A stretch of DNA of 64,000 bases. Origin: Monarcha castaneiventris obscurior. Its lineage: Eukaryota; Chordata; Aves; Passeriformes; Monarchidae. The position numbers and the translations under genes were made by a program. Position 1 is the stretch's first letter, and each line of letters starts with the position of its first letter. The notes beneath the pieces are model-generated. The model ran no database searches and was not told the origin of the DNA. It was given only the letters and a program-made list of their open reading frames with translations. Location of the stretch: the NCBI GenBank assembly GCA_026261815.1, contig JAMPIT010000493.1, positions 9,999,501 to 10,063,500 on the forward strand. Reading direction: 5' to 3'. Positions 5,831-63,235 of this stretch are shown here, one piece after another.

Positions 5831-6512
5831 ACAGGGAGCCCAGAGGGATGGAGCGGGACAGGGATCACCCAGGGAGCCCAAAGGAGTCAGGGCAGTGGGA
5901 CAGGGATCACCCAGGGAGCCCAAAGAGGTGGGGGCAGTGGGACAGGGATCACCCAGGGAGCCGAGAGGGATGGAGCAGGACAAGGATCAGCCAGGGAGCC
6001 CAAAGAGGTGGAGTGGGACAGGGATCACCCAAAGGAATCGGGGCAGCAGGACAGGGATCACCCAGGGAACCGAAAGGGATGGAGCAGGACAGGGATCACC
6101 CAGGGAGCCCAAAGGAATTGGGGCAGCAGGACAGGGATCACCCAGGGAACCGAAAGGGATGGAGCAGGACAGGGATCACCCAGGGAGCCCAAAGGAATTG
6201 GGGCAGCAGGACAGGGATCACCCAGGGAGCCGAGAGGGATGGAGCAGGACAGGGATCACCCAGGGAGCCCAAAGGGATGGGGCGGGACAGGGATCACCCA
6301 GGGAGCCCAAAGAGGTGGAGCAGGACAGGGATCACCCAGGGAGCCCAGAGGGATCGAGTGGGATAGGCATCACCCAAAGGGATGGGGCCAGCGGGACAGG
6401 GATCACAAAGGGAACCCAAAGGAATGGGGGCAGCAGGACAGGGATGGGGCGGGACAGGGATCACCCAGAGAACCCAGAGGGACAGGGGCAGAGGGACAGG
6501 GATCACCCAGGG
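5831..6512. repeat. GC-rich minisatellite, ~30-42 bp units
   Basis: Roughly 18 variant units built on gggacagggatcacccaggg followed by agcccaaaggg and a variable spacer (gatggagca or aattggggcagca). Units alternate in spacer type, which suggests block duplications. The array keeps several long open frames (up to 415 codons on the plus strand) purely because of its composition; they encode a repetitive polypeptide with no known domain. Confidence 0.9.
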
Positions 6513-7919
6513 CTTTTTGGGATCCTGAAAAGCAGCGAGGAGCCTGGGCAGCCACAGCGGGGCTGGCAGCAGCTTGGCTCAGGGAGAAAGCACCTGGTGG
6601 AAAACAGGGATGAGGAGGGAGAGCTGCCTGGTGACATTTGGGCTGCTCAGCCCTGCCCATACAAACCCTATTTCCTCTCTTTGGATTAATTAATCACGGT
6701 TCAAATTCCATTTTCTCTTCTCCCGCTGCTGCAATGACCACCTTCCACACTGAGACCCCAAAACCAGCCCCAAGCACCCCAAAACCAGCCCTGGGCACAG
6801 AAAGAACCCCTGAGGACCCAAATACACGCAGTGGATGCATCTCCAACCCAAAACTTCCCAAAGAAAAGACCCCCAAGCTCCACATGCAGTGCCAGGAGCA
6901 GGCAGTGGGGAGGAGATGCTCCCTCCGTGCTGGGCAAGCAGGGGACACCCCAAAACCAGGGAATTAATGCAGACACGGGGTGAACGGGGTGATCTGGTTT
7001 CCTTTCAGGCTCCCCGGAGCTCTTTCTGGCAGGTGACACCTTCCAGGCCGATTTTCTGCTCTCGGAGCTGCTCCCAGCCAGCGATGGCTGCGATAGGAGC
7101 GGTGCTGGAGCCTGGCTTTGTCCTGCCCCACACCTCTCTGAAAAGGGAGATAAAACCCGCCCCAGGCCAGGGTTACTCCCACCCAGGCCAGGTTTACGTG
7201 CTCCTTCTCCTTCTCCTCCCATCACATCCCGGAGGATGGAGGGAGCAGCTCCCTGTGGGAAATAAATGCTGAGATGCTGTTCCCAGCGTGGCTGGGGAGC
7301 GATTTCACCCCTGATCCTTTGGGGAAAAACCCAAAACTGAAGGAATATGGCTTTGTTTGGGATCCCCCTTGCCTGCTCCCAGTCCTTCCCTTATTCACTC
7401 TGCTGTGCTGAGCAGTTACAGCGTGAAAAGGAAAATTCTCATTCTCTGGAGAGGCTCCTGGAGCTCTGCGGCCTTGCTGGGATCCCACCAGGGATCTCTG
7501 GGAATGAGGGGATCCGTGGGGATCTCCCAAATCGCTGCCTGCTGCTGGTGGCTGCTGAGGTGGGAGGCATCACTGAAAAGCTCCCAAAGCTCCCCCAATC
7601 CTTCCCCTCGCCCTCCCACTCTTCCCTGCTTCATCTGCTCCCTCACCACCAATTCCCCAGGCCAGAACCTGCTCTCCTGGCCCCGTTTCAGCTGGATCCA
7701 GCCCCCCTTCAGCAGCACTTCCCTGCCAGGCTCAGAGATGGCAAAACCCGGGTGGGAAAGGGGCAAAACACCCAAAAAAACCCCCAAAACCCAGCCCCAG
7801 GGTGGGACCACGGCCCATCCCACAGAGCTGAGGGAGCGGGATCGTGTTTGGAGACGGGGACTGATGGCCAAGAGGGGGTAAGGAAAGGAACCTGCCAAAT
7901 CCCACGTGCTGGAAAAGCT
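6513..7919. other. Unique non-coding sequence, no gene seen
   Basis: No repeat unit, transposon end or conserved domain is recognisable. Short purine- and pyrimidine-rich stretches occur, but nothing points to an exon or an RNA gene. Confidence 0.5.
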
Positions 7920-8256
7920 CCGTGGGTGCTGTTCCCGTGCCAGGGGCGCCCTCTTTTCCCTGCCCTCCATGGGTGCTGTTCCCATGCCAGGGGCACCCTC
8001 TTTTCCCTGCCCTCCATGGGTGCTGTTCCCATGCCAGGGGCGCCCTCTTTTCCCTGCCCTCCATGGGTGCTGTTCCCATGCCAGGGGCACCCTCTTTTCC
8101 CTGCCCTCCATGGGTGCTGTTCCCATGCCAGGGGCGCCCTCTTTTCCCTGCCCTCCATGGGTGCTGTTCCCATGCCAGGGGCACCCTCTTTTCCCTGCCC
8201 TCCATGGGTGCTGTTCCCATGCCAGGGGCGCCCTGTTTTCCCTGCCCTCCGTGGGG
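7920..8256. repeat. 47-bp minisatellite with 94-bp higher-order period
   Basis: Seven near-identical 47-bp units (start ccatgggtgctgttcccatg). One site alternates strictly: ggcgccc in units 1, 3, 5 and 7, ggcaccc in units 2, 4 and 6. The array therefore grew by duplication of a 94-bp dimer. The first and last units carry edge variants (cccgtgcc at the start; ccctgtttt and ccgtgggg at the end). Confidence 0.95.
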
Positions 8257-10078: not shown

Positions 10079-10889
10079 CCTTTCCCTTTCCCATTCCCAA
10101 TCCCGTTCCCATTCCCTTTCCCATCCCCTTTCCCATTCCCATCCCCCTTCCCATTCCCTTTCCGATCCCCTTTCCCATCCCCTTTCCCATCCCCATCCCC
10201 ATTCCCATTCCCATTCCCATTCCCATTCCCATCCCCATTCCCATTCCCTTTCCCCTTCCCATTCCGTTTCCGATCCCCTTTCCCATTCCCATTCCCATCC
10301 CCATTCCCTTTTCCATTCCCATTCCCATTTCCGCTCCCATCTCTATTCCCTTCCCCTTCCCCATTCCCATCCCATTCCCATCCCCATCCCCATCCCCATC
10401 CCCATCCCCATCCCCATCCCCATCCCCATTCCCTTTCCCATTCCCTTTCCCATCCCCATTCCCATCCCCATCCCCATCCCCATCCCCATTCCCTTTCCCA
10501 TCCCCATTCCCTTTCCCATCCCCATCCCCATCCCCATCCCCGTTCCCATTCCCTTTCCCATTCCCTTTCCCTTTCCCATTCCCTTTCCCTTTCCCATTCC
10601 CTTTCCCCTTCCCATTCCGTTTCCGATCCCCTTTCCCTTTCCCATTCCCATCCCCATTCCCTTTTCCATTCCCATTCCCATTTCCGCTCCCGCTCCCATC
10701 TCTATTCCCTTCCCCTTCCCCATTCCCATCCCATCCCATCCCATTCCCATCCCATCCCATCCCCATCCCCATCCCCTTTCCCATCCCCATCCCCTTTCCC
10801 ATCCCATCCCCACCCCCATCCCATTCCCATCCCCATTCCCATTCCCATCCCCATCCCCTTTCCCATCCCCATCCCCATCCCCGTTCCCT
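10079..10889. repeat. Long (CCCATT)n/(CCCCAT)n/(CCCTTT)n array
   Basis: About 810 bp of pyrimidine-rich hexanucleotide variants. Pure (ccccat)n runs lie around 10376-10430, 10450-10490 and 10515-10540, mixed with cccattccc and cccttt units. A long segment recurs: the block near 10240-10375 (ccgatccc... ccgctcccatctctattccc) is repeated near 10600-10735, so part of the array was duplicated as a unit of about 360 bp. The minus strand is rich in GGGGAT runs that could form G-quadruplexes. Confidence 0.95.
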
Positions 10890-13980: not shown

Positions 13981-14656
13981 AGCATCCCAAAATCCCACAC
14001 CTGTGCCACCATCCCAAATCCACACCTGTGCCATCATCCCAAATCCACACCTGTGCCATCATCCCAAATCCCACACCTGTGCCACCATCCCAAAATCCCA
14101 CACCTGTGCCATCATCCCAAACCCCACACCTTTGCCACCATCCCAAATCCACACCTGTGCCATCATCCCAAATCCACACCTGTGCCATCATCCCAAATCC
14201 CACACCTGTGCCACCATCCCAAAATCCCACACCTGTGCCATCATCCCAAATCCACACCTTTGCCACCATCCCAAATCCACACCTGTGCCATCATCCCAAA
14301 TCCACACCTGTGCCATCATCCCAAATCCCACACCTGTGCCACCATCCCAAAATCCCACACCTGTGCCATCATCCCAAACCCCACACCTTTGCCACCATCC
14401 CACACCTGTCCTATCATCCCAAATCCACACCTGTGCCATCATCCCAAAATCTACCCCTGTGCCATATCCCAAAATTTACACCTGTGCCACCATCCCAAAT
14501 CCACACTTGTGCCACCATCCCAAATCCACACCTGTGCCATCATCCCAAATCCCACACCTGTGCCGTCATCCCAAGCCCCACACCTGTGCCACCATCCCAA
14601 ATCCCACACCTGTGCCATCATCCCAAATCCACACCTGTGCCACCATCCCAAACTCC
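13981..14656. repeat. 24-27 bp minisatellite, ~27 units
   Basis: Units follow cacacctgtgccaccatccc plus aaatc, with regular single-site variation (ccacc/ccatc, aaatc/aaaatc/aaacc). Internal blocks of several units are repeated (for example 14003-14150 resembles 14140-14290 and 14280-14400), which indicates block-wise expansion. Open frames through it are artefacts. Confidence 0.95.
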
Positions 14657-21590: not shown

Positions 21591-22441
21591 GGGAATCAGA
21601 GGCCAGCAGTGATGAGTTAATTAAGGCCTTATTCTCACAAAGAGCTCATCACGTGCCAGGCCCAGCCAGGGAATCCCTCATTTGGATCCCAAAGCCAGGC
21701 TGGGGATCCCAAAGGAGGTTCTGGAAAATGCACAGGGACCAATCCTGCTCTGCTCCCATCTCCTGCTCCAAACCCTTCGCGTTCCTGGTGTGTTTTACTG
21801 CTCTGGGTGCTGGGGCAGGGCGGAAATCAGCCCAGGACAAGAGAGAACGGCAATCCCTGCCCCCCGAGCGCTTCCAAAGGCAGCAGACAAGATGTAACAT
21901 GAGGAGGAAACGGGCTGCGGGCCAGAGGGGATGCCATAAAAACGGGATGTTTTGGAGCCTCTCTGCCGTGGGCATAAATCACCGCCCACCCCTGCACCTC
22001 GCCCAAACCAAACCTCCCCACGGCCCCAGCCGGGGCCAAAGGGACCAAAAATGGGTCTCTGGGTGCTGGGTGCCCAGCAGGGCTGCAGGGATTTATTTGG
22101 CTGTGCGTGGCTCGGTGGCAGAGCTGGGAATGGGCTCCTGCCCTCCCAAAGCTTTGGTGGGAAAGACTTCTCCTCTCCTCTGCCCTCCTGCCAAAAATCC
22201 TCAAGGTTTAAATAAACCCAGCTGCTCCCCACAACGCTTTTGTCACCTCTTCTTCCTCCCTCTCCATCCCACCTTCCTCGCCGCCCTCACAAACCAGCGA
22301 TGGCAAAGACGGGAATTTCTTTTCCTCTCAAGAACGAGAAGCTGGGTTGGGGCAGGGAAAAGCCAACTTACTCCCAACAAACACCCCAAACTTCCTGGCG
22401 GCCACATCCCAAACCCTCTGCCGGCCTGGCAAACGCAGCGG
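21591..22441. other. Unique non-coding sequence, no gene seen
   Basis: No recognisable gene. gttaattaaggc at 21615 is the only AT-rich motif of note. Confidence 0.5.
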
Positions 22442-31027: not shown

Positions 31028-31727
31028 TCACAGAATCCCAGACCGGGTTAGGTTTGAAAGGACCTTAAATCCCATCCCATCCCATCCCATCCCATCCCAT
31101 CCCATCCCATCCCATCCCATCCCATCCCATCCCATCCCATCCCATCCCATCCCATCCCATCCCATCCCATCCCATCCCCCATCCCACCCATCCCTCCCAT
31201 CCCATTCCTCCATCCCCATCCCATCCCATCCCACCCATCCCACCCATCCCATCCCATCCCCACCCATCCCATCCCATCCATCCCACCCATCCACCCATCC
31301 CATCCCATCCATCCCACCCTCCCCATCCCATCCCATCCCATCCCATCCCACCCATCCCATCCCTCCCATCCCATCCCATCCCATCCCATCCCACCCATCC
31401 CATCCCATCCCATCCCAATCCCCCATCCCTCCCATCCCATCCATCCCATCCCATCCCATCCCATCCCATCCCATCCCATCCCATCCCATCCCATCCCATC
31501 CCATCCCATCCCATCCATCCCATCCCATCCCATCCCATCCATCCCATCCATCCCATCCCATCCCATCCCATCCCATCCCATCCCATCCCATCCCATCCCA
31601 TCCCATCCCATCCCATCCCATCCCATCCCATCCCATCCCATCCCATCCCATCCCATCCCATCCCATCACCACCTCCCACCATTCCAGGATGCTCCAAGTC
31701 TCCTCCAACCCGGCCTCAAAAAGCCCC
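31028..31727 (-). mobile_element. CR1 LINE tail split by a 600-bp (CCCAT)n expansion
   Basis: The left edge, tcacagaatcccagaccggg to gaaaggaccttaaat (31028-31069), is an antisense CR1 3' end. The right edge, cattccaggatgctccaagt to ccaacccggcct (31680-31718), is the adjoining CR1 segment. The array between replaces the short catcccatccc-type stretch normally found there, so the satellite grew inside the LINE copy. Confidence 0.75.
31068..31669. repeat. (CCCAT)n satellite, ~600 bp
   Basis: About 120 pentanucleotide units. The flanks are pure and the middle (31190-31440) is broken by ccatccatccc, cccacc and ctccc variants. Minus-strand GGGAT runs may form G-quadruplexes. Confidence 0.98.
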
Positions 31728-37953: not shown

Positions 37954-38371
37954 GGAGTGCCCATTTCCATCACAGAAGGAAAATCTGTCCCCTCACCCAC
38001 CCCAAACAGCCTGGGAAGCGTCCCTGGGGATGAAATGCCGCCATGAAAGTGTCTGAGCAAGCCCACAGACCCAGCTGGGCACAGGTAATTCCATGAGTTT
38101 CGTCCTTTGCCTTCCAACCAGCCAAATTAGGGTCATTAATCAGGAATTCTGCCAGATCTGCAAACCAGTCTGAGCTCTGCTCCCTTTTAATTCTCCCTGG
38201 TCAGCGCCAGCCCTGGCAGCAGCAGTGCTGATCCACCCCCACACGTCCCAACTTTCCCTCAGGGAGCTGCTGCCCGGCTGGGGCACTCGGATCGGGATCA
38301 TTCCTGGGGAGAGTTCCCAAATCCCACCCCAGCCCTCCCACGGAGCTGCAGGGACAGGGCAGTGTGGAGCA
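37954..38371. other. Non-coding spacer
   Basis: Unique sequence; the last bases (38368-38371 or -38372, agca/agcac) form the left copy of the direct repeat bounding the next element. Confidence 0.45.
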
Positions 38372-38789
38372 CGTTGGAAATCATACAGAGTTTAATTTCT
38401 TTATGTCACTTCAGTCCTAAAAACTAGTTTTTAATGACTTTTACTCGCCTTTGCCCCGGGAGAAGGGAATTGAAGTTCCTTTTCAGGGCATTGTTCCACC
38501 AGGCTGGGCCTGAGGAGCCGAACACCTCAACAGACCGGGAGCAGGGCAGAAGAGACACGAGAGATAACGACCATCAACGACAATTAACAAACATCAGCTC
38601 CAAACATCACCCCTGGCATGGTCAGAGATGCCTGGTCTGATAAGAGATAAGAGAACTGATAAAAGAACCAAGAACGAGAACCTGATTGACACTGAAGGGA
38701 TCAATACCCAATAGGAAACCAAATGGTGACAACTGCACAACGTGGGACCAATGAACATTGAGCCAATGAATTTCTGTGGGTTTTGGCTG

Positions 38790-38796
38790 TATAAAT
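38790..38796 (+). promoter_or_regulatory. LTR TATA box
   Basis: tataaat preceded by two CCAAT boxes 27 and 42 bp upstream and followed ~135 bp later by AATAAA, the order expected of a retroviral U3/R promoter. Confidence 0.6.
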
Positions 38797-38923
38797 ATGA
38801 GAAAAATCTGGTAAAATCCACGTGTGATGGAAGGATTTCCTCTGCGCACCCGGGCAATGTGTGGGTGAAAAGGTTTCTGTGTCACAACTGGGCCACAACC
38901 ACATCCTGGCCAGAGTAAAGTAA

Positions 38924-38938
38924 AAATAAATAAAGTAA

Positions 38939-38969
<31 letters not shown>

Positions 38970-38982
38970 ATACATAAATACA

Positions 38983-39029
<47 letters not shown>

Positions 39030-39030
39030 A
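38924..39030. repeat. (AATA)n microsatellite in the LTR
   Basis: About 25 tetranucleotides with two 'aatac' variants. It sits where the LTR polyadenylation signal is expected and ends at gcctcggttg, so it most likely expanded from AATAAA. Confidence 0.95.
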
Positions 39031-39101
39031 GCCTCGGTTGTCCAACACTAAAAACACTGTCAGAGAGTTTTTTGGTTTTCCCGCTGTTTTGGCGACAATT
39101 T

Positions 39102-39119
39102 TGGCGACCCAGATGGGAC
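39102..39119 (+). promoter_or_regulatory. Primer-binding site, tRNA-Arg(CCG)
   Basis: TGGCGACCCAGATGGGAC is the exact complement of the 3' end of vertebrate tRNA-Arg(CCG), including the added CCA, as I recall that tRNA. It starts 4 bp after the LTR end. This is strong evidence that the region upstream is a true LTR and that it is read on the plus strand. Confidence 0.75.
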
Positions 39120-39263
39120 GAGGCTCTCAACGCTCTGCAGGTTCTGGGATTGTGAGGGGCTCCAAATGCACATGGAAAATATCATCCAGGGAGGCTTCGC
39201 ATTCCCTGAGCCAGGGGAGTTCAAAGCAAGATCGAACCCTAACCCCAACCCTAACCAAGAGGT

Positions 39264-40231
39264 GTTGAAACCTGTTGGCCCCGAAGACATGGGAGCCATG
39301 GCAGGGTATGAACAGGAGGAAGAGAAGGAGGAAGGAGAAGGAGAAGGAGGAAGGAGAAGGAGAAGGAGAAGGAGAAGGGGAAGGGGAAGGAGAAAGAAGG
39401 AGAAGGAGAAGGAGAAGGAGAAGGAGAAGGAGAAGGAGAAGGAGAAGGAGAAGGAGAAGGAGAAGGAGAAGGAGAAGGAGAAGAGAAGGAGAAGGAGAAG
39501 GAGAAGGAGAAGGAGAAGGAGAAGGAGAAGGAGAAGGAGAAGGAGAAGGAGAAGGAGAAGGAGAAGGAGAAGGAGAAGGAGAAGGAGAAGGAGAAGGAGA
39601 AGGAGGACACTCAGGCCATCTTTGAGTGCAGCCAGAAAATCCAGGAGGAAAGGAAGATGATAAATTTCCCGCGGCAGTAAGAGCTTCCTGCAGCGTGTGG
39701 AGCCCAAGGACACGGCTGGGAAACGCCTCTGCAGGAGGGCTCAGGACAGGGCCCACCCGAGCTCCGGAGCGCTCGTGGCTGTGCTGGGACACTCGGCTCG
39801 GCCACAGGGACCACAGAGAGACCGGGTTCTGTGGCTTTGGGGCCAGCTGCAAATCCCTGCACGAGCCCTGGGGCGGCAAACAGGGCTGGCAAATCCCATG
39901 GGAGCTGCACGGGGGCCACAGTGATGGAAACAACGAGGTGAGCAGCCATGAGGGGGACCTGCCCCTAAATGCTTCATCTGCAGGGGTTCCTTCAAAACCC
40001 CGTGGTCACCAAGGTGCAGCTTCTGTGAGAGCTGAGCCTTCCAGTGCCATTACAAATCCCAGCGCTGCCACGTCCGTGACGAGCAACCAAGGGGGCCTTC
40101 AGCCCCGCCAAAGAGCTCACAGCAAAGCTGGAAAAACACAAAGGGGAGGAAGATGAGGAGCAGCAGCCAGACCATGGAGAGGATGCGCTGGTTTTTACGA
40201 AACCCAACACAGCTTTTGTGAGAGGAAAAAA
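39264..40231 (+). pseudogene. RNF113A: Processed pseudogene of RNF113A (RING/CCCH spliceosomal factor)
   Basis: RNF113A is the animal counterpart of yeast Cwc24, a nuclear spliceosome component with a CCCH zinc finger and a RING domain. This copy starts within the middle of the protein (KPVGPEDMGAMA, 39273 on), continues with DTQAIFECSQKIQEE (39606), GKEDDK (39647), GNASAGGLRTGPTRAPE (39719), the CCCH finger TGFCGFGASCKSLH (39821-39862), GKQGWQIPWEL, the RING start KCFICRGSFKTP (39967) and the tail GAFSPAKELTAKLEKHK (40092). No introns interrupt it. It is dead: at least four frame changes, a TGA at 40033-40035 in place of a RING cysteine, another RING cysteine changed to arginine, and a 290-bp GA-rich expansion. 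The first ~150 residues are missing and replaced by the LTR leader. An A-rich stretch follows. Confidence 0.85.
39314..39605. repeat. (GGAGAA)n purine tract inside the pseudogene
   Basis: About 290 bp of pure purine on the plus strand (ggagaa/gaggaa units). It lies exactly between the RNF113A pieces ending ...GYEQ and beginning DTQAIFE, where the parent gene encodes an acidic E/K-rich stretch. It therefore grew from glutamate/lysine codons. Such mirror-symmetric tracts can form triplex DNA. Confidence 0.95.
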
Positions 40232-40288
40232 AAAGAAATTGAAAAAAAAGAAATTAAAAAAAGTTAAACTCTGTATCATTTCCAACAA

Positions 40289-43200
40289 GCACAGCCAGGA
40301 GGGTCCTGCTTGGAGGGCGCCCCTGCACCTGGATGGATTTCCAGGCCTCCTTAAAGCAAGGACAAGTGGGAAGCTGACGTTCCCTCCAGCTCCTTTCAGC
40401 TCTCCGCGTTCCCAAAAGCTCAGGGACCACAGGGACAGCCCAGCTTGGCAGCCCTCAAAAAGAAACCTCTTGCCATTTTTCTCCCATTCTTTAAAAAACT
40501 AAAAGCCAAGAGGGAGGTGGAGACTGGGGGGTATCAGACGATTAAATATCCCCAGCAGCCCGGAGAAAGAGGAGCACAGGAACAAAGAGGGGAGGGGGAA
40601 AAAGTCTGCTTTTTATTATTAAACTATTCTCTCAAATTTCTAATAAGCAGGTTGAAGTTTAAATTACCAGATCTCTGACAAAGTCAGGATCCAAACAGTT
40701 CAGGAGCTGCAGATAACAATCGCCTTCCCCCAGATCACTTTCAAGGCCTTTTCTGCCGAGACAAAGCTCCCATTCAGAGGGGCACAGGGACCTCGGGGCT
40801 TTGGTTTCCCTCAGCTCTGGAGCCCTAAAGGCCCCGGCAGGGAGAGAAGCAGGTCCTGCACCTGCAGCAGGATGGCCCAGCAAGGACCAGGAATGCTGGA
40901 AAACCAAGGATCCGCGGCAGCCCAACCCCTGGAAGTGCAACCTGAGCCCCTGCTCAACGCAGCCTTACAAATCTCCCAGATTTGGGGGGGAAAAAGAGGG
41001 AATGAGGAGCCCTGAGTGTGCACAGACCTGGCTGGGCCAGGTGGGAGCTGCTGGAGAAAGCAGCTGGGATCCCACAGCCTGGGTGCTGTGGAGGACGAAG
41101 CCAGAGCCAAAGGATGTGCCACAGCTTGTCCGAGCTGGGATTAAAGCTGGAAGCATTCCTGCCCCGGGAATCTGGCAGGAAGGATGTACCAAATCCCCGA
41201 TAATAAAAGTTCTGATGAAATTTAAGGGGAAGAGACATTTGACAGTGGGTTGGGAAGGCGTGACCGGGCTGGGAGAAATCAGCAGGTGAGAAACACAGAG
41301 AACCTGGGGTAAACAGCAGTGAAATCTCCGTTTCCAGCACCACAAAAGGATCCAGATCCCAAATGAACGGAAGGATCTGCAGATCCCAGGCTGGTTCCTT
41401 CTAATTCCTGTGTCACAGCTCATCTGGGATCTGTCCCCAGCTGACACAGACACCCGACCCCACCTCCAGCTGTAGGATTGGATGTTCCAACCCCATTTTC
41501 AGCTCAAACCCATGGATTGTGTCACCTCAAGCAGCTCCTGGTGCCACCAGCTGCCAGGGAGAGCTGAACCCCAACTCCCCTCAACCTGTGCCCCTGGGGG
41601 CACCAGCACAGGGGTAATTGGGGTTAATTGAGCAGGTGCAGTAGTGCATTGCAGTGCTGCAGCCAGAGCTCACCAGGAGCCAGCTGGGGGACCCTGACTC
41701 CAAGGCACAGGCTCGGCTCTTCCCTCGGGATCAGCTGGCCAGCAGGAGACATCAAACACAGCCCCCCCTTCACCCCCAGCACGGGAATTGAGGATCCACC
41801 TGGAATTGTCATCCCTTCCACCCCACCCCTCGCCCCCAGCCTGCTCCCTTTCCGTGGCGAGGGAGGAGGAGGAATCTGCTTTCCCCCTGGGTTTTCCCCT
41901 GGCTCCCAGCTCCCCCCGCTCCCCCCGCTCGGCATTGAGGCCGATAATTCCGGCTGAAAAGCCTCCACATTCCCATGCTGCCAGCCTGCCCTCCCTTCCC
42001 ACCGCCCCCAGAGCGGCAGGAAGGAGCAGGACTGGGCCTGGGGCAGGCAGAGCCCTCGGCCCGGCTCACCCTGAGCAGGTGAGCTCCAGAGGGACGCTGC
42101 CAAAAGCAGCAGGAATTCTCCTCAACCTTCCCAGGAATGTGGTGTCCCACCTGCCCGGCAGCTCATGGAGATGCCAGCGAGGTAAAGGACAAGAACAACC
42201 CGACATCCCCTAAATCCTCTTCTTTCTGGAGGCTGGAATTGAGGCTGGATTTCCTCCCCACTCCCGGAGGTGCCAGAGCCCAGCACTGCTCAGCCTCAGG
42301 GTTGTGTGTCCCACCTGCTCCACTTCAGTGCCACACACACCAAAAAAAACCCAAAAAAAGAGGGGAAATGGCCTGAAGCAGCATTTGGGATTTGGGACAG
42401 TTTCCCCCAAGGACACGCTGTGCCCAGGACCCTCAGCCCTGCCCACCCCGGTCGTGGCTGAGAGCGGCTCCAGCAAACAGCCTGGGAAGGCAGAGGAAGG
42501 AGATTTAATTCCTGCTCTGCCAACAACCCATAGATCACCCTGGAAAACTTCCCCCACACCTTCCCGGCTCAGCCTGCCTTCACAATTCCTCTAATTAATT
42601 CAGGAGAAAATTAATTACAGCAGGATTTGCGGCAGCACAGCATCTAATGACCGACTCCTCCGCTCCAAAGCAGATCATCCCAGGCTCCCGCCTGCGCTGC
42701 CAAACCTGGCCCTGCCGCCTCCCCCTTCCCAGCCCAGCACAAAGCCCTGCTCTAAATTAGGCAGGGAAAGAGTGGCTTGGCAAAAGCGAAGCAGAGCACC
42801 GAGGTCAGGCCCTGAAAAACAACAGCGGTGCCTAAAGAAACCCCAGTGTTAATCCCGTCATGCTTCCGCCAAAGATTCCCCTTTTCAAGGGTTTTCTTCC
42901 TGGTAAACAAAGTTCTCTCCATTGGGCTGTGAATTTTAGGGCATGGTTGCTGGGTGATGCCAGGCTGCAAGGCAGGAGGTTTGTGCTCCCCAGCCTGCAG
43001 AGGATGGCGCAGGGTTCAGTGAGGAAACTCAAAAGGAGCTGGAATCTCGGGGCAGGCAGAGCCGATTTACACTGCAATTACTCCAACCTGGAGTCGAGTT
43101 TTGCCCCTGATAATTTGGATTTATGGGAAGATGCTCCCCCCATCTCTCCCCCCAGAGCCGGCTCTGCCCAGCTCCCCTTGCTCCTGAGGATGTTCCCAAA

Positions 43201-57030: not shown

Positions 57031-58548
57031 CTCGGTGCCCCAGTTTAACCCGCAGGACAGAGCCCTTGGCGTTGTCACAGAGACGCCCCCAAAAAGGACC
57101 ACCCAGACCCCCAAAAATCCTCAAAAGCCCCACTCCTCGCCCCGCACTGCACCCCCGCAGCACTGAACAGATTTCAGGTGCGGTTGATTTTTTTTTTTCC
57201 CGTTGCCTCCCACATTCCCCATGAGGGATCAGCTGCTGCCCCGCGCCTCCAGCCCCGAGCAGCAGAGCCGGGCCACACACTGCGGGCCACCAGCGCCTGC
57301 TGGACACCAGCCCCGGTGTTTTCGTCCTCTCCACGAGCCCCCACAACATCCCGGGAGAGCAGGGATGGAACAAGGGCTCAGCGGCATCCCGGGAAGAGGA
57401 GAGGACCCATCCCGAGCCAACGGAGGAGGAGGAGCGGAGTCTGCAGCAGGAAGGATGATGATCCTCACATTTTGAAGAGGGGATCTGCCTCCTGCCCTCC
57501 CCAAACCCGTGTTCTCCAGGGACAGAGCAGGAATAAAAGGGGAATTTCGGCTGTGGAGGGTGGGAGCATCCACAGACAGCGAGAGCACGAACTGTGTGGG
57601 CAGCAAAGCCAAACAGGAAGGGATCCAAGGGGCAGGGACGGGATTCTGGCAGCTTCCACCTCCCTGCTGCTCCCTCTCCCGGGTGTCCCACCCTCGGACC
57701 CCTGGCCCTGCTCAGACATGCCCCAATTCCGCTTTTACTGTCGGAATTCTTCCCATCCAAGGGGCTGGATTTACAAAAATGCAGCCGGAGAGCCCCAGCC
57801 CCATGCAGGAACCGGTCCCAGCACAGCCTTGAGCAGTTCCAGGGCAGCCACAGCCTCTCTGGGCTGGGCCGGGGGTTCCTTCATGACCTCAGCGCTGTGC
57901 CAGGCTTGGAGGATCTAAACCAGCCGGGAAGGATCACCCCGGCTCGGGGCAGCCCCTACCACTGCCACAGCCCTGCTGAGCCTTTCCTTCAGCCCCAGCT
58001 CTGCTGCCAGAGCCAGCCCGGCTCCCAAAGCCTGGGCAGAGGTGTCACCACAGCTCCGGGGCCACAGGAGTGGTTTGTTCCCAGGCCGCCCTTCCTGGGA
58101 AGGTGTTAATGAATAACCGCGGCCCAGACAGGCGCTGGCAGCTCCTGAGTCACCGAGAGCCCCGGCACAGCCGGCCCTGACTCACGGACAGCCCGGCCCG
58201 GCCACCAAACACCGGCCCCGAGCCCCCCGCGGCACCGGGGGTCACACTGGGGGAGACCCCCCCAAACCCTGGCTCTTTAACCCCAGCATTGCCCAGGGTG
58301 GTGCAGAGCTCGCCCTGAGATGTGACACCGGGAAAGCCTCGCATTGAGGCGCAGCAGGACCTGCAGGAAGGGCCCCGGACACCTCAGGAGCACCCAGAGA
58401 TGTGGAGGGGGTGGCTGAGATGGAAAACACACCCTGGCTGCATCCCGGGGGCCGCAGGGGGCTCCTGGCAGTGGCTTCTTCCCAGAGGGATGCACTCGGA
58501 GTGCAGCATCCGCTGCTCCCAAAGCGTCGCTCCCAGCTCCGTCCGCAG
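57031..58548. other. Unique non-coding sequence, no gene seen
   Basis: GC-rich; open frames overlap on both strands without domains. One T-run at 57188-57199. Confidence 0.45.
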
Positions 58549-58804
58549 CTTCCTCCTCAAATTCCAGCCCTGAACAACCCCCTAAACCCGAGCATCCTCA
58601 GATTCCTCCTCAAATTCCAGCCCTGAACAACCCCCTAAACCGAGCATCCTCAGCTTCCTCCTCAAATTCCAGCCCTGACCAACCCCCCAAACCCGAGCAT
58701 CCTCAGATTCCTCCTCAAATTCCAGCCCTGACCAACCCCCCAAACCCGAGCATCCTCAGATTCCTCCTCAAATTCCAGCCCTGACCAACCCCCCAAACCC
58801 GAGC
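58549..58804. repeat. ~53-bp minisatellite, ~5 units
   Basis: Units read gagcatcctcagattcctcc followed by tcaaattccagccctgaccaaccccccaaaccc; units 1-2 have gaacaaccccctaaa. Confidence 0.95.
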
Positions 58805-59921
58805 ACAGGTGGAAGCCTAAAAATAGAACTTTTCACCCCCTCCCCCTGCCACACCCCGAGCACTTTCTCATTCACACACTCCAACCTGTTCTGCTCTTTC
58901 GAGCAATTTTCCCCCTCCCTCCCCGCAGGAAAAGGCCACCCGTGTGTCACCTGGGGCTGACAGGCAGGGCGAGGAATGAAGAAAGTCCCATTCTCCTTCA
59001 TTTTTGCAGCAGGGTGAGCAGCACGGGGTGACACCAGGCTGGGCCAGCCCACGCTGCCCCGGGTTTGGGGAAGGCTCTGGCACCCCCTGACAGCTCTGGG
59101 TCATTTATCAGGAGTGTCCCCACGGTGACAGAGCCCTGCCAGGCCGAGGGATGGGCCTGAGCCGTGCAGTGACATTCCCTGAGCAAGAGCTCTGCTCATT
59201 TCCCAGAGTTCCTGCTTTTCCTGCTGGAAGTGCGGAGCCCCTCGCTGTGGGCAGGAGCTGAGCAGCTCCCCTCGGTTTCTGCCAGCAGCAGGAGCTCCCA
59301 GTGATCCATGGGATCCATGGGATCCCTGGATCTTCCAGAGGAGCTGGAGGGCTCTTCCCCCTCTTCCCCCTCCTCACCTCCTCCCCCTCCTCGGAGATCT
59401 CCATCCGCTGCCTGGAGGGAAAGCAGGGATGCTCTGAGGCACCTCCTGCATCCACAGAAGTCAGCAGGGCTTGGATCCCCGGGATAAAGGGATTACAGGG
59501 AGCACCCTCCTCATTCCCACACTCTCTCCCATCCCAGTGCAGAATAAACTGCTCACAGGACGGGAAAAGCGCTGCAAACCCAAACGTTTGTCCCAAAGAG
59601 AGGATGAGACCTCGGGCATGGGTTCCCCACCTCTCACCCTGCAGGGAGGCAAGGGAAAAGCGCAAGAAAAGGGGATTTGTTTCCATTCGGATTTATCCAA
59701 AGTGGGTTCCAGCAAGTTCTCCAAAAATAATTTTCATGGATTGGAGGGAAAAAAGGAGGTTTTATTCCACACCCACTCACGCTGATCCCTCTGGAAGGGA
59801 AACTCATCCATGCGTGGCCGTGTTTGGGCTGGCAGGACGTGGGGACACCCACGGATCATCCCAACATCCACTGGGATCAGGCACCGTGGGATTCCCGGGA
59901 TCAAAATTCATCCCTGGGATG
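58805..59921. other. Unique non-coding sequence
   Basis: No gene recognised. Ends at the ERV target site. Confidence 0.45.
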
Positions 59922-60405: not shown

Positions 60406-60861
60406 TCACTTCCATTCTGGTACCTGCCACTCAGATCCATCCCTCCAAGTGACAACGGCCTTCCCGGTTCTGCCTGAACCGTCAGTAAAGACAGTGGGTC
60501 CGTGCACTGGCTCCTGACTGTGTTTGGGTCTCAGAGAAATCTCTGTGAGTTTTGCCACTTGCAGCAACTTGTGGCTAGGCAGATGATATGCAATCTGCCC
60601 TGAAAAATTCTCTAGAGTACTTTGCAGCGAAATGCTGTTTGCAAAGCTCCAGTCAAAGCCCTCCCGCTGTACCGGCAGTACAATCTGTGCGGGGTCTGCA
60701 CCCATCAATTGCAGTTGCCGTCTTCTGCGGCTGATGGGGCAAGAAGACCCATTCCAGGATGTGCAAAGGATCGGACCATTCGTCACTCCATTGGCCAATG
60801 ATACCTGTGGGATGCAAATCTGGTGTGGTAATGAAAACAGTGACATCAACGGAGGGATCAA
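60406..60861 (-). pseudogene. pol remnant: RT connection and N-terminal RNase H
   Basis: A 151-codon open frame whose C-terminal third, near residue 122-135, reads GPTVFTDGSGRTGKA, the first strand of retroviral RNase H with its first catalytic aspartate (near 60483). The part before it matches the RT connection region only loosely. The rest of RNase H, with the other catalytic acids, is absent; the frame runs into about 25 unrelated residues rich in S and D and stops. It is in a different frame from the RT piece upstream, with the shift near 60810. It cannot act as an enzyme. Integrase sequence does not follow. Confidence 0.7.
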
Positions 60862-61262
60862 TGGGATGAACCTGTCGAGCAGAAACAGCTTGCTGCACCT
60901 CCTCCAGCACCTGACGTGCCTCTGGGGTCAATGTGCGAGGTGACTTCAAATCAGGGTCCCCCTTCAACAAATCAAATAAAGGAGACAACTGTGCCGTGGT
61001 CAGTCCCAAATACGGACGTAACCAAGCAATAACACCCACCAATTTCCGGGCATCATTCAGCGTCTTCACTGATTGCACAAATTGCACCTCTTGGTGTTGA
61101 ACTGTATGTTCCAAAATTTTGACCCCCAAATAGTTCCAAGGAGGTTGTTGCCACATACATCTGGCATATGGCCGGTGAATTCCGCATCCCTTGGAGAAGC
61201 GTCCTCCATTGATATCTCTGTGCCGGTCCAGCATTGTTAATTGCTGGCACTGTGAAAACAAT
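60653..61262 (-). pseudogene. pol remnant: reverse transcriptase with palm active site deleted
   Basis: Two pieces in different frames. The first (about 61262-61148) reads [10 protein letters not shown]...QWRTLLQGM...PAICQMYV, the RT region just before the catalytic aspartates. The second (from about 61138) starts WNYLGVKIL and runs through [10 protein letters not shown] and LSPLFDLLKGDPDL, the RT thumb and connection. Only about 10 bp lie between them, so the YMDD segment that should sit there, near 80 residues, is gone. The N-terminal fingers and the first catalytic aspartate are also missing. The remaining pieces cannot copy RNA. Confidence 0.8.
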
Positions 61263-61668
61263 ATAAGAGGCGTAAGACACTGCACCTTTCACTGCAGTGG
61301 CCTCCAGTAAAATCCGTCCCAATGCGCACCCCCCATGCAGCCAGAACATCCCTCCCCCAGAGGTTTGTAACAGTCCCAGTAGCATGAGGCCTAATCACGG
61401 CCGTCTGTCCCTCTGAGTTCGTGACCATCACAGGCTTCTGGCTCACGTAGCAGCGCTTCGTCCCACAGCACTGTCGAGAAGCCCACGGAGAGATATCTGG
61501 CAACGTAGCATCAGTGATGGACAGGGTGCACCGCATCACAGGACGTGTTCTGGTCAAGACAGCAGTCCAATGAACCTGAGGGGGCCCAGTGGAACCCAAA
61601 GCAGCCATCTTCTCGTGACCTCGATTCTGTCCTGAGAGCAGAGGACTCAAAAGGAACAAGTTGAGCAA
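61237..61668 (-). pseudogene. pro remnant: aspartic protease without a recognisable active site
   Basis: A 143-codon frame starting in the link between dUTPase and protease (GSTGPPQVHW near residue 26) and ending with the protease C-terminal motif [10 protein letters not shown]. The catalytic D-T/S-G triplet expected about 15 residues after GSTGPP is not there; the local sequence reads SITDATLPDIS, which looks like the site with residues lost. The frame then runs out of homology directly into the RT region. It lies in the same frame as the dUTPase piece but is separated from it by stops and a local frameshift. Confidence 0.65.
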
Positions 61669-61677
61669 TGCGAGTCT

Positions 61678-61935
61678 TTACAGGAATTGTAACCAGGGGG
61701 TGGGGGGGGGTGGGTGTGAAAAGAGTCTCTGATGCACCATGATATCATGAACGGTGGCACCAGACCTGCCCAGGAGGAAAACATTCAGGCCACCGCCCAA
61801 GGGACCAAAAGTATCCAGGGGGACCTTGTGCACTCTGCAAGAGTCTAAGACGACCGTCTCTGCTGTGCAGACAAGGCCGACCAGTACCAGAAACTGCAGC
61901 TTTGCAGTGCCTGGCAATATGATTTGGCAACCCAC
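61678..61935 (-). pseudogene. dUTPase-like remnant (pro gene)
   Basis: An 85-codon frame overlapping the 3' end of gag in another frame, as pro does in betaretroviruses. It contains TFGPLGGG and LLGRSGAT, which match the dUTPase motif around the trimer active site, and a VHQ close to the following conserved motif. Right after that the sequence collapses into a C/G run (hppppt in translation), and the C-terminal end of the domain (IAQLVPFES) is in a different frame near 61650. Presence of a dUTPase ahead of protease is characteristic of betaretroviruses and related class II ERVs. It is inactive. Confidence 0.65.
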
Positions 61936-63235
61936 ACCGAAAGCAGAAACACGAGACAGCCGTGCCTTTCTGCACCTGTCTTCCTGGTTTCCTGCTAGCC
62001 TGCCCCCACTGCCTGCCCCGCAGAACAGGAGAATGTTTAGGCAGTGCCTCAGGTTTTGCTTTCACATCACCCCAGAACCTCGCCTTTTCACGAGGGCGAA
62101 CCGTCGCTTTACACTGGGGAATATTGCAAAGGCTGCTAGAAGCAGGCTTGCTATCAGGATCAGCAGCCTTAGCGGTTTTTGCACGTTTCCGACGTCTCAC
62201 GGACGATACCGGTGAGACTGAGCTGGCGTTATCGGAGAAATCAGAGTCCGAAATCCCCGCGGCCCCGGCCCCTGCGGCCGCAGCCGCAGCACGGACCGGG
62301 GCTCGGCGGCGCTTCCCCCTCTCCTGCGCGGGGAGGGGCCGAGCCGCTCGGAGCTGCCGCTCCCGCAGCCCCGCGGCGCTGCCCTGTTGCGCAACCAAAG
62401 ACACCGTGGGCAGCGGCCGCGCCTCCGCGATCCGCTCAGACCGGGGAGGGGACGAAACTGCGCTCAGCTGGGTCCTGCCGCCAGCGCGGAGACCGCGCGC
62501 AGGCCGCGCGGGCCCGGGGGGAAGGGCGGCAGCCCCCACGCTGCCCGGAGCCAGACTCGCCGGCCTCGCCGGAGCTTCAGCGCCCCCGGGCCAGCGCCCG
62601 GCATCGGAGCCCGCGTCCCCAGCAGGCTCGGGCCGTGCGCCCCCCGAGCCACTCAGCGCAGGGAAGGCGCGGAGAGGGGGGCGCGTCTCGCTGTCCTGCC
62701 TCTCCCGCCGCGCGGGGGGGGGCGAAGCCCCCAGCGCCTTTCCAGAACGGCGCCGGGGCGGGGAGACCGACCACGCCATCCCCCCCGAGCGGCGCCGGGG
62801 GGCCGAAACGCACTGCACCCCCCGCCCGGAGCCGTGCCGGGGTGGGCGGGGGGGCTCAGACACTGTTTGCCTGCCCTGTTCTCTGTCCCGCTCTAACTCG
62901 GGTGGCTCAGAGAGCGTCCTGACAGGGGTAATACCGCCTGGAGAATCCTTCTGGGCTTGAACCGCAGCATTCACCCGTCTCCAGGACAGTAATAACTTAA
63001 CCACATCTCTGTCATCAGCCTCTGCGAAAACGGAAAACAAGGCTCTCCCAATTGACAGCCATTTGGATTTATCAAGAATATAACAGTCTTCTGGGAAAAA
63101 TCCATTATCTTTGGCCCAAAAATATAAATTTTGTAAGTCTACCTTGCGAATAGCCATGTTCTCGCCTTCTAAACACATATCGAGAACCACTAACGCCTTA
63201 AAGTCATAAAAGGATCTCTCCCTAGAGACGCCCAT
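61745..63235 (-). CDS. gag: Truncated gag: matrix, GC-rich linker and nucleocapsid, capsid missing
   Basis: A 496-codon open frame starting 50 nt after the primer site, the first ATG of the provirus RNA. Residues 1-95 form a helical, charged domain placed like matrix (MGVSRERSFYDFK...). Residues about 95-345 are rich in P, R, A, G and S with repeats of PRRRSG, encoded by very CpG-rich DNA. A basic patch RRRKRAK lies near 350. The C-terminal part holds one CCHC zinc knuckle, CFRCGLPNHIARHC (about residues 431-444). Only some 60 residues separate the basic patch and the knuckle, and no major homology region is seen, so capsid is missing. The last 50 residues are probably read out of frame into pro. 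The reading frame is intact, so a protein could be made, but it could not build a particle alone. Confidence 0.75.
   Translation of the reverse strand: MGVSRERSFYDFKALVVLDMCLEGENMAIRKVDLQNLYFWAKDNGFFPEDCYILDKSKWLSIGRALFSVFAEADDRDVVKLLLSWRRVNAAVQAQKDSPGGITPVRTLSEPPELERDREQGRQTVSEPPRPPRHGSGRGVQCVSAPRRRSGGMAWSVSPPRRRSGKALGASPPPARRERQDSETRPPLRAFPALSGSGGARPEPAGDAGSDAGRWPGGAEAPARPASLAPGSVGAAALPPGPARPARGLRAGGRTQLSAVSSPPRSERIAEARPLPTVSLVAQQGSAAGLRERQLRAARPLPAQERGKRRRAPVRAAAAAAGAGAAGISDSDFSDNASSVSPVSSVRRRKRAKTAKAADPDSKPASSSLCNIPQCKATVRPREKARFWGDVKAKPEALPKHSPVLRGRQWGQASRKPGRQVQKGTAVSCFCFRCGLPNHIARHCKAAVSGTGRPCLHSRDGRLRLLQSAQGPPGYFWSLGRWPECFPPGQVWCHRS

Follow-up and report, generated by a model that had tools for sequence, protein, structure and literature searches.

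The locus described here raises the question of how a cellular message came to lie directly behind a retroviral LTR and primer-binding site. Transduction by retroviruses has mostly been deduced from completed oncogenic viruses, whose beginnings are obscured by later recombination. A preliminary description of this DNA had proposed that RNF113A, a host gene, was captured in such a transduction. We analyzed the whole stretch of 64 kb, hereafter called the window (C378:9999501-10063500 of the 1.08-Gb assembly). The joining of an LTR to RNF113A was confirmed, and the case for it is firmer than had been stated.

Organization of the insertion

The LTR (U3-R-U5) occupies positions 38373 to 39097 on the forward strand, its 3' limit being inferred from the ...GGCGACA end that precedes the primer site. 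It begins with GTTGGAAATCATACAGAGTTTAATTTCTTTA (38373 to 38403, forward strand), the U3 start, which forms the left terminal arm of the insertion. It carries TATAAATA at 38790 and 11 AATAAA signals, which start between 38925 and 39025 and cluster at 38925-39030 within an AAAT array. After a spacer of 4 bases comes the Arg-like primer-binding site of 18 nt, TGGCGACCCAGATGGGAC (39102 to 39119, forward strand). The anatomy of the LTR reported in the preliminary description is present. A putatively viral leader of 148 nt (39120 to 39267, forward strand) then runs into the RNF113A copy, and, as had been noted, no viral gene such as gag or pol lies between the LTR and the host cDNA.

The LTR is single in the 64-kb window, where no second copy was found, and no copy was seen in 20 sampled 10-kb stretches of the genome, which is a small sample. 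Among viral contigs, neither a relative of RNF113A nor a match to the 24-nt U3-start pattern was found, and a search of a phage collection gave no match. Since no relative of the LTR was found, the leader is taken as viral by its position, and the donor after GAGGTGTTG is likewise a putative one.

The pattern of the primer-site 18-mer was derived from 39102-39119 itself, so that a scan with it is informative on further copies only; no second match was found in the window with up to 3 mismatches allowed. When the site was compared with 10 tRNA sequences, the best agreement was with Arg-CCT (16/18), other Arg tRNAs reaching 13-15 and non-Arg tRNAs 10-13. The site is Arg-like, and the perfect tRNA-Arg match stated earlier was not reproduced. 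No tRNA gene was found in the window or in 37 fetched loci. Three matches to the 18-mer among viral contigs, in which the similarity stops at 18-19 nt, were taken as chance.

The leader showed no homology to RNF113A exons 1-3, 407 of 500 shuffles scoring at least as high as the real sequence; when the alignment was anchored at the junction, 143 of 300 shuffles did so. A degenerate exon 3 seemed plausible by eye, and this reading was rejected because 486/500 shuffles scored as high or higher for exon 3 alone, in a test whose exon-3 slice started one base late. Against the 5' part of an intronless RNF113A copy on contig C412, the corresponding figure was 455/500. The leader also contains a telomere-like 22-mer, AACCCTAACCCCAACCCTAACC, at 39235-39256, 11 bp before the junction, and with up to 3 mismatches allowed this is the sole such place in the window.

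Elsewhere in the window, a decayed provirus lies at 60406-63235 on the reverse strand, with a reverse-transcriptase thumb domain at 60653-61285 and an open frame at 61745-63235 on the same strand, which is gag-like by eye only and had no Pfam match. Minisatellite or simple arrays occur at 5832-6376, 7918-8255, 10082-10888, 13983-14652, 31069-31667 and 58542-58829, with several reading frames open in some of them.

Identity of the retrocopy and its parent gene

The RNF113A retrocopy (39268 to 40225, forward strand) comprises the spliced exons 4-10 and the host 3' UTR up to the inferred poly(A) site. The segment 39626-40156 matched human RNF113A with E=6.9e-20; the KPVGPEDMGA block (39166-39339) gave E=0.011, which is weak on its own. 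The copy holds a CCCH zinc finger, with a score just above the cut-off, as well as RING remnants and the C-terminal PAKEL region. In its exon 4 an array of the hexamer AGGAGA is expanded (39314 to 39605, forward strand), the counterpart in the gene being GAGAAGGAGAAGGA. Frameshifts and stops break the reading frame, in keeping with the earlier view that the copy is dead.

A genome search with 39250-40288 gave at least 10 matches at no fewer than three loci, namely the window (1), C412 (2) and C577 (7). The C577 locus is an interrupted, intron-bearing RNF113A gene, and the C412 copy is intronless. We used a model of the C577 gene with ten exons (L013), which was inferred from splice signals and from comparison with the intronless C412 copy rather than from transcripts. 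Human RNF113A is described as intronless, and the intronless state of a copy was therefore uninformative until a bird gene with introns had been found. A Turdus RNF113A record has extra residues between SA and KPVG, which suggests agreement with an intron at that position. Compared with the spliced exons 4-10 of the C577 gene, the retrocopy was identical at 538/661 positions when aligned pairwise, with the hexamer array wrongly placed, and at 550/674 when the array was left out.

The C412 copy (L012, C412:1523500-1531000, reverse strand) is full-length, with an uninterrupted frame of 521 residues that starts at position 2709 of the reverse complement, and it may be a functional retrogene. Near its N-terminus there is a long GEQRGSA-type repeat expansion (unit 21 bp by our reading), and its C-terminus is frameshifted relative to the gene. 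We rejected it as the parent of the window copy, because the latter is nearer to the intron-bearing gene (0.816 vs 0.790) and because the C412 copy includes exons 1-3 and has no match to the window LTR. No LTR relict was found at the host locus within C577:333500-382000, except one 19-nt match (E=0.5).

The junction between the leader and exon 4

The copy had been described as beginning mid-protein. When the junction was compared with the exon boundaries of the bird gene, the homology was found to start exactly where exon 4 does, so that splicing explains this beginning. The 3' splice site of the C577 gene reads TTGCTTTTCAG/AAACCTGTTGG, and the window copy starts at AAACCTGTTGG, position 39268. 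That is, exon 4 is entered as TTGCTTTTCAG/AAACCTGTTGGCC in the gene and as GAGGTGTTG/AAACCTGTTGGCC in the window, with the fusion junction at 39267..39268 on the forward strand. The host sequence is thus joined at a splice junction, the donor on the viral side being a putative one. The last base of the leader, G, is also the last base of exon 3, and the junction is therefore ambiguous by one base; the overlap with exon 3 is at most 1 nt, and a junction at microhomology, as in a template switch, was not seen.

At all 6 joins from exon 4 to exon 10, intron sequence is absent. Two of them, 4/5 and 8/9, are each touched by a small deletion, and 12 bp are deleted immediately ahead of the join between exons 7 and 8. 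Set against the intron-bearing C577 gene, the copy is intronless, as had been claimed. A random start would fall on an exon boundary in about 1-3% of cases by our own estimate, which takes 9 internal joins, a message of about 1.0-1.1 kb and a tolerance of +/-1 base and is built on the inferred C577 exon table. A spliced LTR-RNF113A fusion mRNA, when reverse transcribed, would leave the structure observed.

The 3' end of the insertion

The retrocopy tracks the host 3' UTR up to AAAAAAAAGCTCACAG in the gene, 13 nt after the AATAAA position. Beyond the poly(A) position the gene continues as GCTCACAG, and the window has an A-rich tail (40226 to 40262, forward strand). The departure of the window from the gene at this position makes polyadenylation of the template at the host site the most likely reading, although a run of 8 A is present in the gene as well, and the untemplated part is confined to the A-rich sequence that follows. 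As an alternative reading of the sequence, the purine-rich stretch at the 3' end could be a viral polypurine tract.

The tail is continued by TTAAACTCTGTATCATTTCCAACA, which repeats the start of the window LTR in inverted orientation. This right terminal arm (40256 to 40287, reverse strand) reads TGTTGGAAATGATACAGAGTTTAACTTTTTTT on the reverse strand, and the inner, A-rich portion of the arm is shared with the tail. Over about 31 columns the two terminal arms agree at 29 positions and are set apart by 2 mismatches and a gap of 1 nt. Their alignment score was 21, whereas 300 mononucleotide shuffles reached no more than 12, and an inverted-arm match arose in 0 of 100 dinucleotide shuffles. Moreover, the U3 9-mer AATTTCTTT (38394-38402) recurs inverted in the tail at 40232 and 40247. 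Its reverse complement, AAAGAAATT, has no other forward-strand occurrence in the window; AATTTCTTT itself is present also at 22314 and 27813. Since the tail shares this 9-mer with U3, the 3' end is tied to this LTR. The unit does not have two direct LTRs: no second one lies in the window, and on the right it closes with about 31 nt of inverted U3. The missing direct 3' LTR and the inverted U3 end had been overlooked in the preliminary description.

The pentamer AGCAC stands directly outside both ends of the unit, at 38368 to 38372 (context GGAGCAC/GTTGG) and at 40288 to 40292 (context CCAACA/AGCAC). It is a candidate target duplication of 5 bp, or of 4 bp (AGCA), that bounds the LTR together with the retrocopy. 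Taken as 5 bp, it leaves the ends GTTGG...CCAACA, which are uneven by one base; if it is 4 bp, the C at 38372 would be the mutated first T of the LTR. By our own estimate, a 5-bp repeat occurs by chance at given ends with a frequency of about 1/1000 per register. A duplication bounding the pseudogene alone, which had been named as evidence against a capture, was not seen. The repeat seen lies outside the LTR, unlike an L1-type duplication around the cDNA and tail only. An intronless host cDNA is continuous with LTR-element sequence, and AGCAC flanks the whole.

Decay of the retrocopy

We aligned the window copy, the C412 copy and the C577 gene over 669 columns. The private changes numbered 107 in the window copy, a count that includes any on the branch common to the gene and C412, 29 in the C412 copy and 11 in the gene; all three differ at 5 columns. 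The 98 coding private changes fell 35/37/26 at codon positions 1/2/3. This distribution gives no sign of selection, and we rejected the idea that the captured gene had been under selection. The preliminary description had placed any role of the copy in the past; the neutral change over codon positions indicates no past role.

Among the 107 private changes of the window copy, A>G and T>C together make up 49, vs 23 for C>T and G>A. The usual decay of pseudogenes shows the reverse bias. ADAR-type editing was considered for the excess of A>G (30/107) and was rejected, as T>C is high too (19/107). On rough base counts the pattern thus looks strand-symmetric, and GC-biased conversion fits better in our judgment.

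Only 2 substitutions and one gap separate the arms, vs the 107/669 private changes of the copy. The probability that 30 bases carry at most 2 changes is 0.15 at an expected divergence of 15%, 0.044 at 20% and 0.011 at 25%, and it falls to 0.003 at about 29%, the divergence that we ourselves expect. The arms are more alike than would be expected had all the divergence come after insertion, which counts against a simple history. Some of the changes may predate the insertion, the arms or the copy may have evolved unusually, or the 30 bases may mislead.

Origin of the insertion

On the sequence evidence, the capture of a cellular mRNA behind the LTR is well supported by the start at exon 4, the six intron-free joins, the apparent stop at the host poly(A) site and the one candidate duplication around the unit. 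Of the retroviral transduction proposed earlier, the mRNA capture stands, but a complete transduced retroviral genome does not, because the window holds no second copy of the LTR and the unit closes on the right with a stub of U3 in inverted orientation.

We consider it probable that the unit arose by LTR read-through, splicing to exon 4, host polyadenylation, retroviral reverse transcription, pairing of U3 with poly(A), and insertion by integrase. A retrovirus with this LTR, either endogenous or infecting, would have lain upstream of or within RNF113A. A read-through transcript driven by the LTR would have been spliced from a putative donor in the viral leader to the exon-4 acceptor, and the fusion message would have been polyadenylated at the RNF113A site. 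The left U3 and the terminal structure suggest that this RNA, which kept the primer site, was reverse transcribed by retroviral enzymes. Since such a transcript starts in R, the U3 at the left end needs either a round of reverse transcription in which the strand is transferred to another viral RNA, or else an existing provirus end. Since it would have no R and U3 at its 3' end, a normal right end could not form; the right end has no R/U5, as would be expected. Instead, the T-rich plus-strand start of U3 (TTTAATTTCTTT) may have paired with the poly(A) tail. Extension of one strand on the other, in either direction, that is, of poly(A) or of U3 DNA, would leave the right end with a stub of inverted U3. 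A cDNA with integrase-type U3 ends on both sides could then have been inserted with the AGCAC duplication, after which it would have decayed neutrally.

Other histories have to be weighed against this one. Template switching in a virus-like particle, from viral leader RNA to a normal RNF113A mRNA, yields the identical order of LTR, leader and cDNA and involves no spliced fusion. This route has been reported for animal retrocopies, those of chicken included, according to a review (PMC5408686). The one common base (G) at the junction would serve as minimal microhomology. However, the switch must hit the first base of exon 4 by chance, which by the above estimate happens rarely, and we regard this route as rather unlikely. 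Clearly less likely still is the chance meeting of an older LTR with a processed pseudogene of RNF113A, by two independent insertions or by a DNA rearrangement. An intronless RNF113A copy without this LTR does exist on C412, and telomere-like filler, such as the 22-mer just before the junction might represent, is known from break repair. Nevertheless, the inverted arms and AGCAC enclose the LTR and the copy as a single unit, the copy begins on the first base of an exon, and the U3 9-mer in the tail links the 3' end to this LTR.

The inverted ends of about 31 nt and the short flanking repeat also bring to mind a terminal-inverted-repeat DNA transposon that captured part of an LTR together with a retrocopy of RNF113A (Pack-type). 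The left arm, however, opens an LTR whose TATA, poly(A) signals and primer site follow one another in proper order, the right arm blends into the A-rich tail that is found where the host message is polyadenylated, and only one such unit was present among the matches listed in the RNF113A genome search; such an origin seems very improbable. Least of all do we favor the reading of the right arm as the start of a second, inverted LTR that was later mostly deleted, with AGCAC arising by chance. The arms are indeed U3 sequence, and a chance repeat would have the frequency estimated above, but the inverted U3 adjoins the A-rich tail directly, and R/U5 were not seen there.

Relation to known retrocopies and gene captures

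LTR-mediated retrocopies, for which a review cites Tan and coworkers, are already known, and the join at a splice site together with an inverted U3 end is a new variation. As that review describes them, such retrocopies occur in chicken among other animals, with template switching at microsimilarity as the model, and like the present unit they combine an intronless host cDNA with LTR-element sequence in a single insertion unit (PMC5408686). From the reviewed model the window unit differs in its join at a splice site, its retained host poly(A) end and its inverted U3 stub at the right. It resembles an L1-type processed pseudogene in its spliced cDNA and A-rich tail, but its flanking repeat takes in the LTR, and at the 5' end of its cDNA an LTR leader meets an exon boundary. 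RNF113A is not a known growth gene, and the unit has no direct 3' LTR; in both respects it is unlike the captures by avian alpharetroviruses. Without a direct 3' LTR, the window copy could not replicate as a normal provirus. The account of those viruses, in the part of the source relevant here, includes LTR read-through, splicing into a host gene, oncogene capture and loss of viral genes, and the read-through, splicing and loss are the points of likeness (PMC4276931).

Crocodilian ERVs that captured KIT ligand and nectin3 likewise represent the uptake of host mRNA by a retrovirus in a sauropsid, as set out in the pertinent part of the report on them (PMC4299795). There they are described as keeping all viral genes (KIT ligand) or most of them (nectin3, to which env was lost), and as present in several copies with signs of purifying selection; of the window unit one copy was seen, and its decay is neutral. 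The matches listed in our literature search included no published report of RNF113A capture. Inverted U3-poly(A) ends were not met in the nearest literature, in a search whose terms did not name them.

In this one decayed insertion, the exon-boundary junction, the poly(A) end of the host message and both outer ends are preserved together. We suggest tentatively, as a possibility about which we remain doubtful, that the first step in the capture of a gene by a retrovirus is here fossilized in the germline, with U3/poly(A) pairing completing the cDNA and giving U3 ends usable by integrase on both sides. Inverted U3-poly(A) ends beside bird retrocopies offer a target for searches. The finding bears on the entry of host mRNAs into retroviral cDNA: if the process is general, any poly(A) message with a primer site could integrate without a direct 3' LTR.
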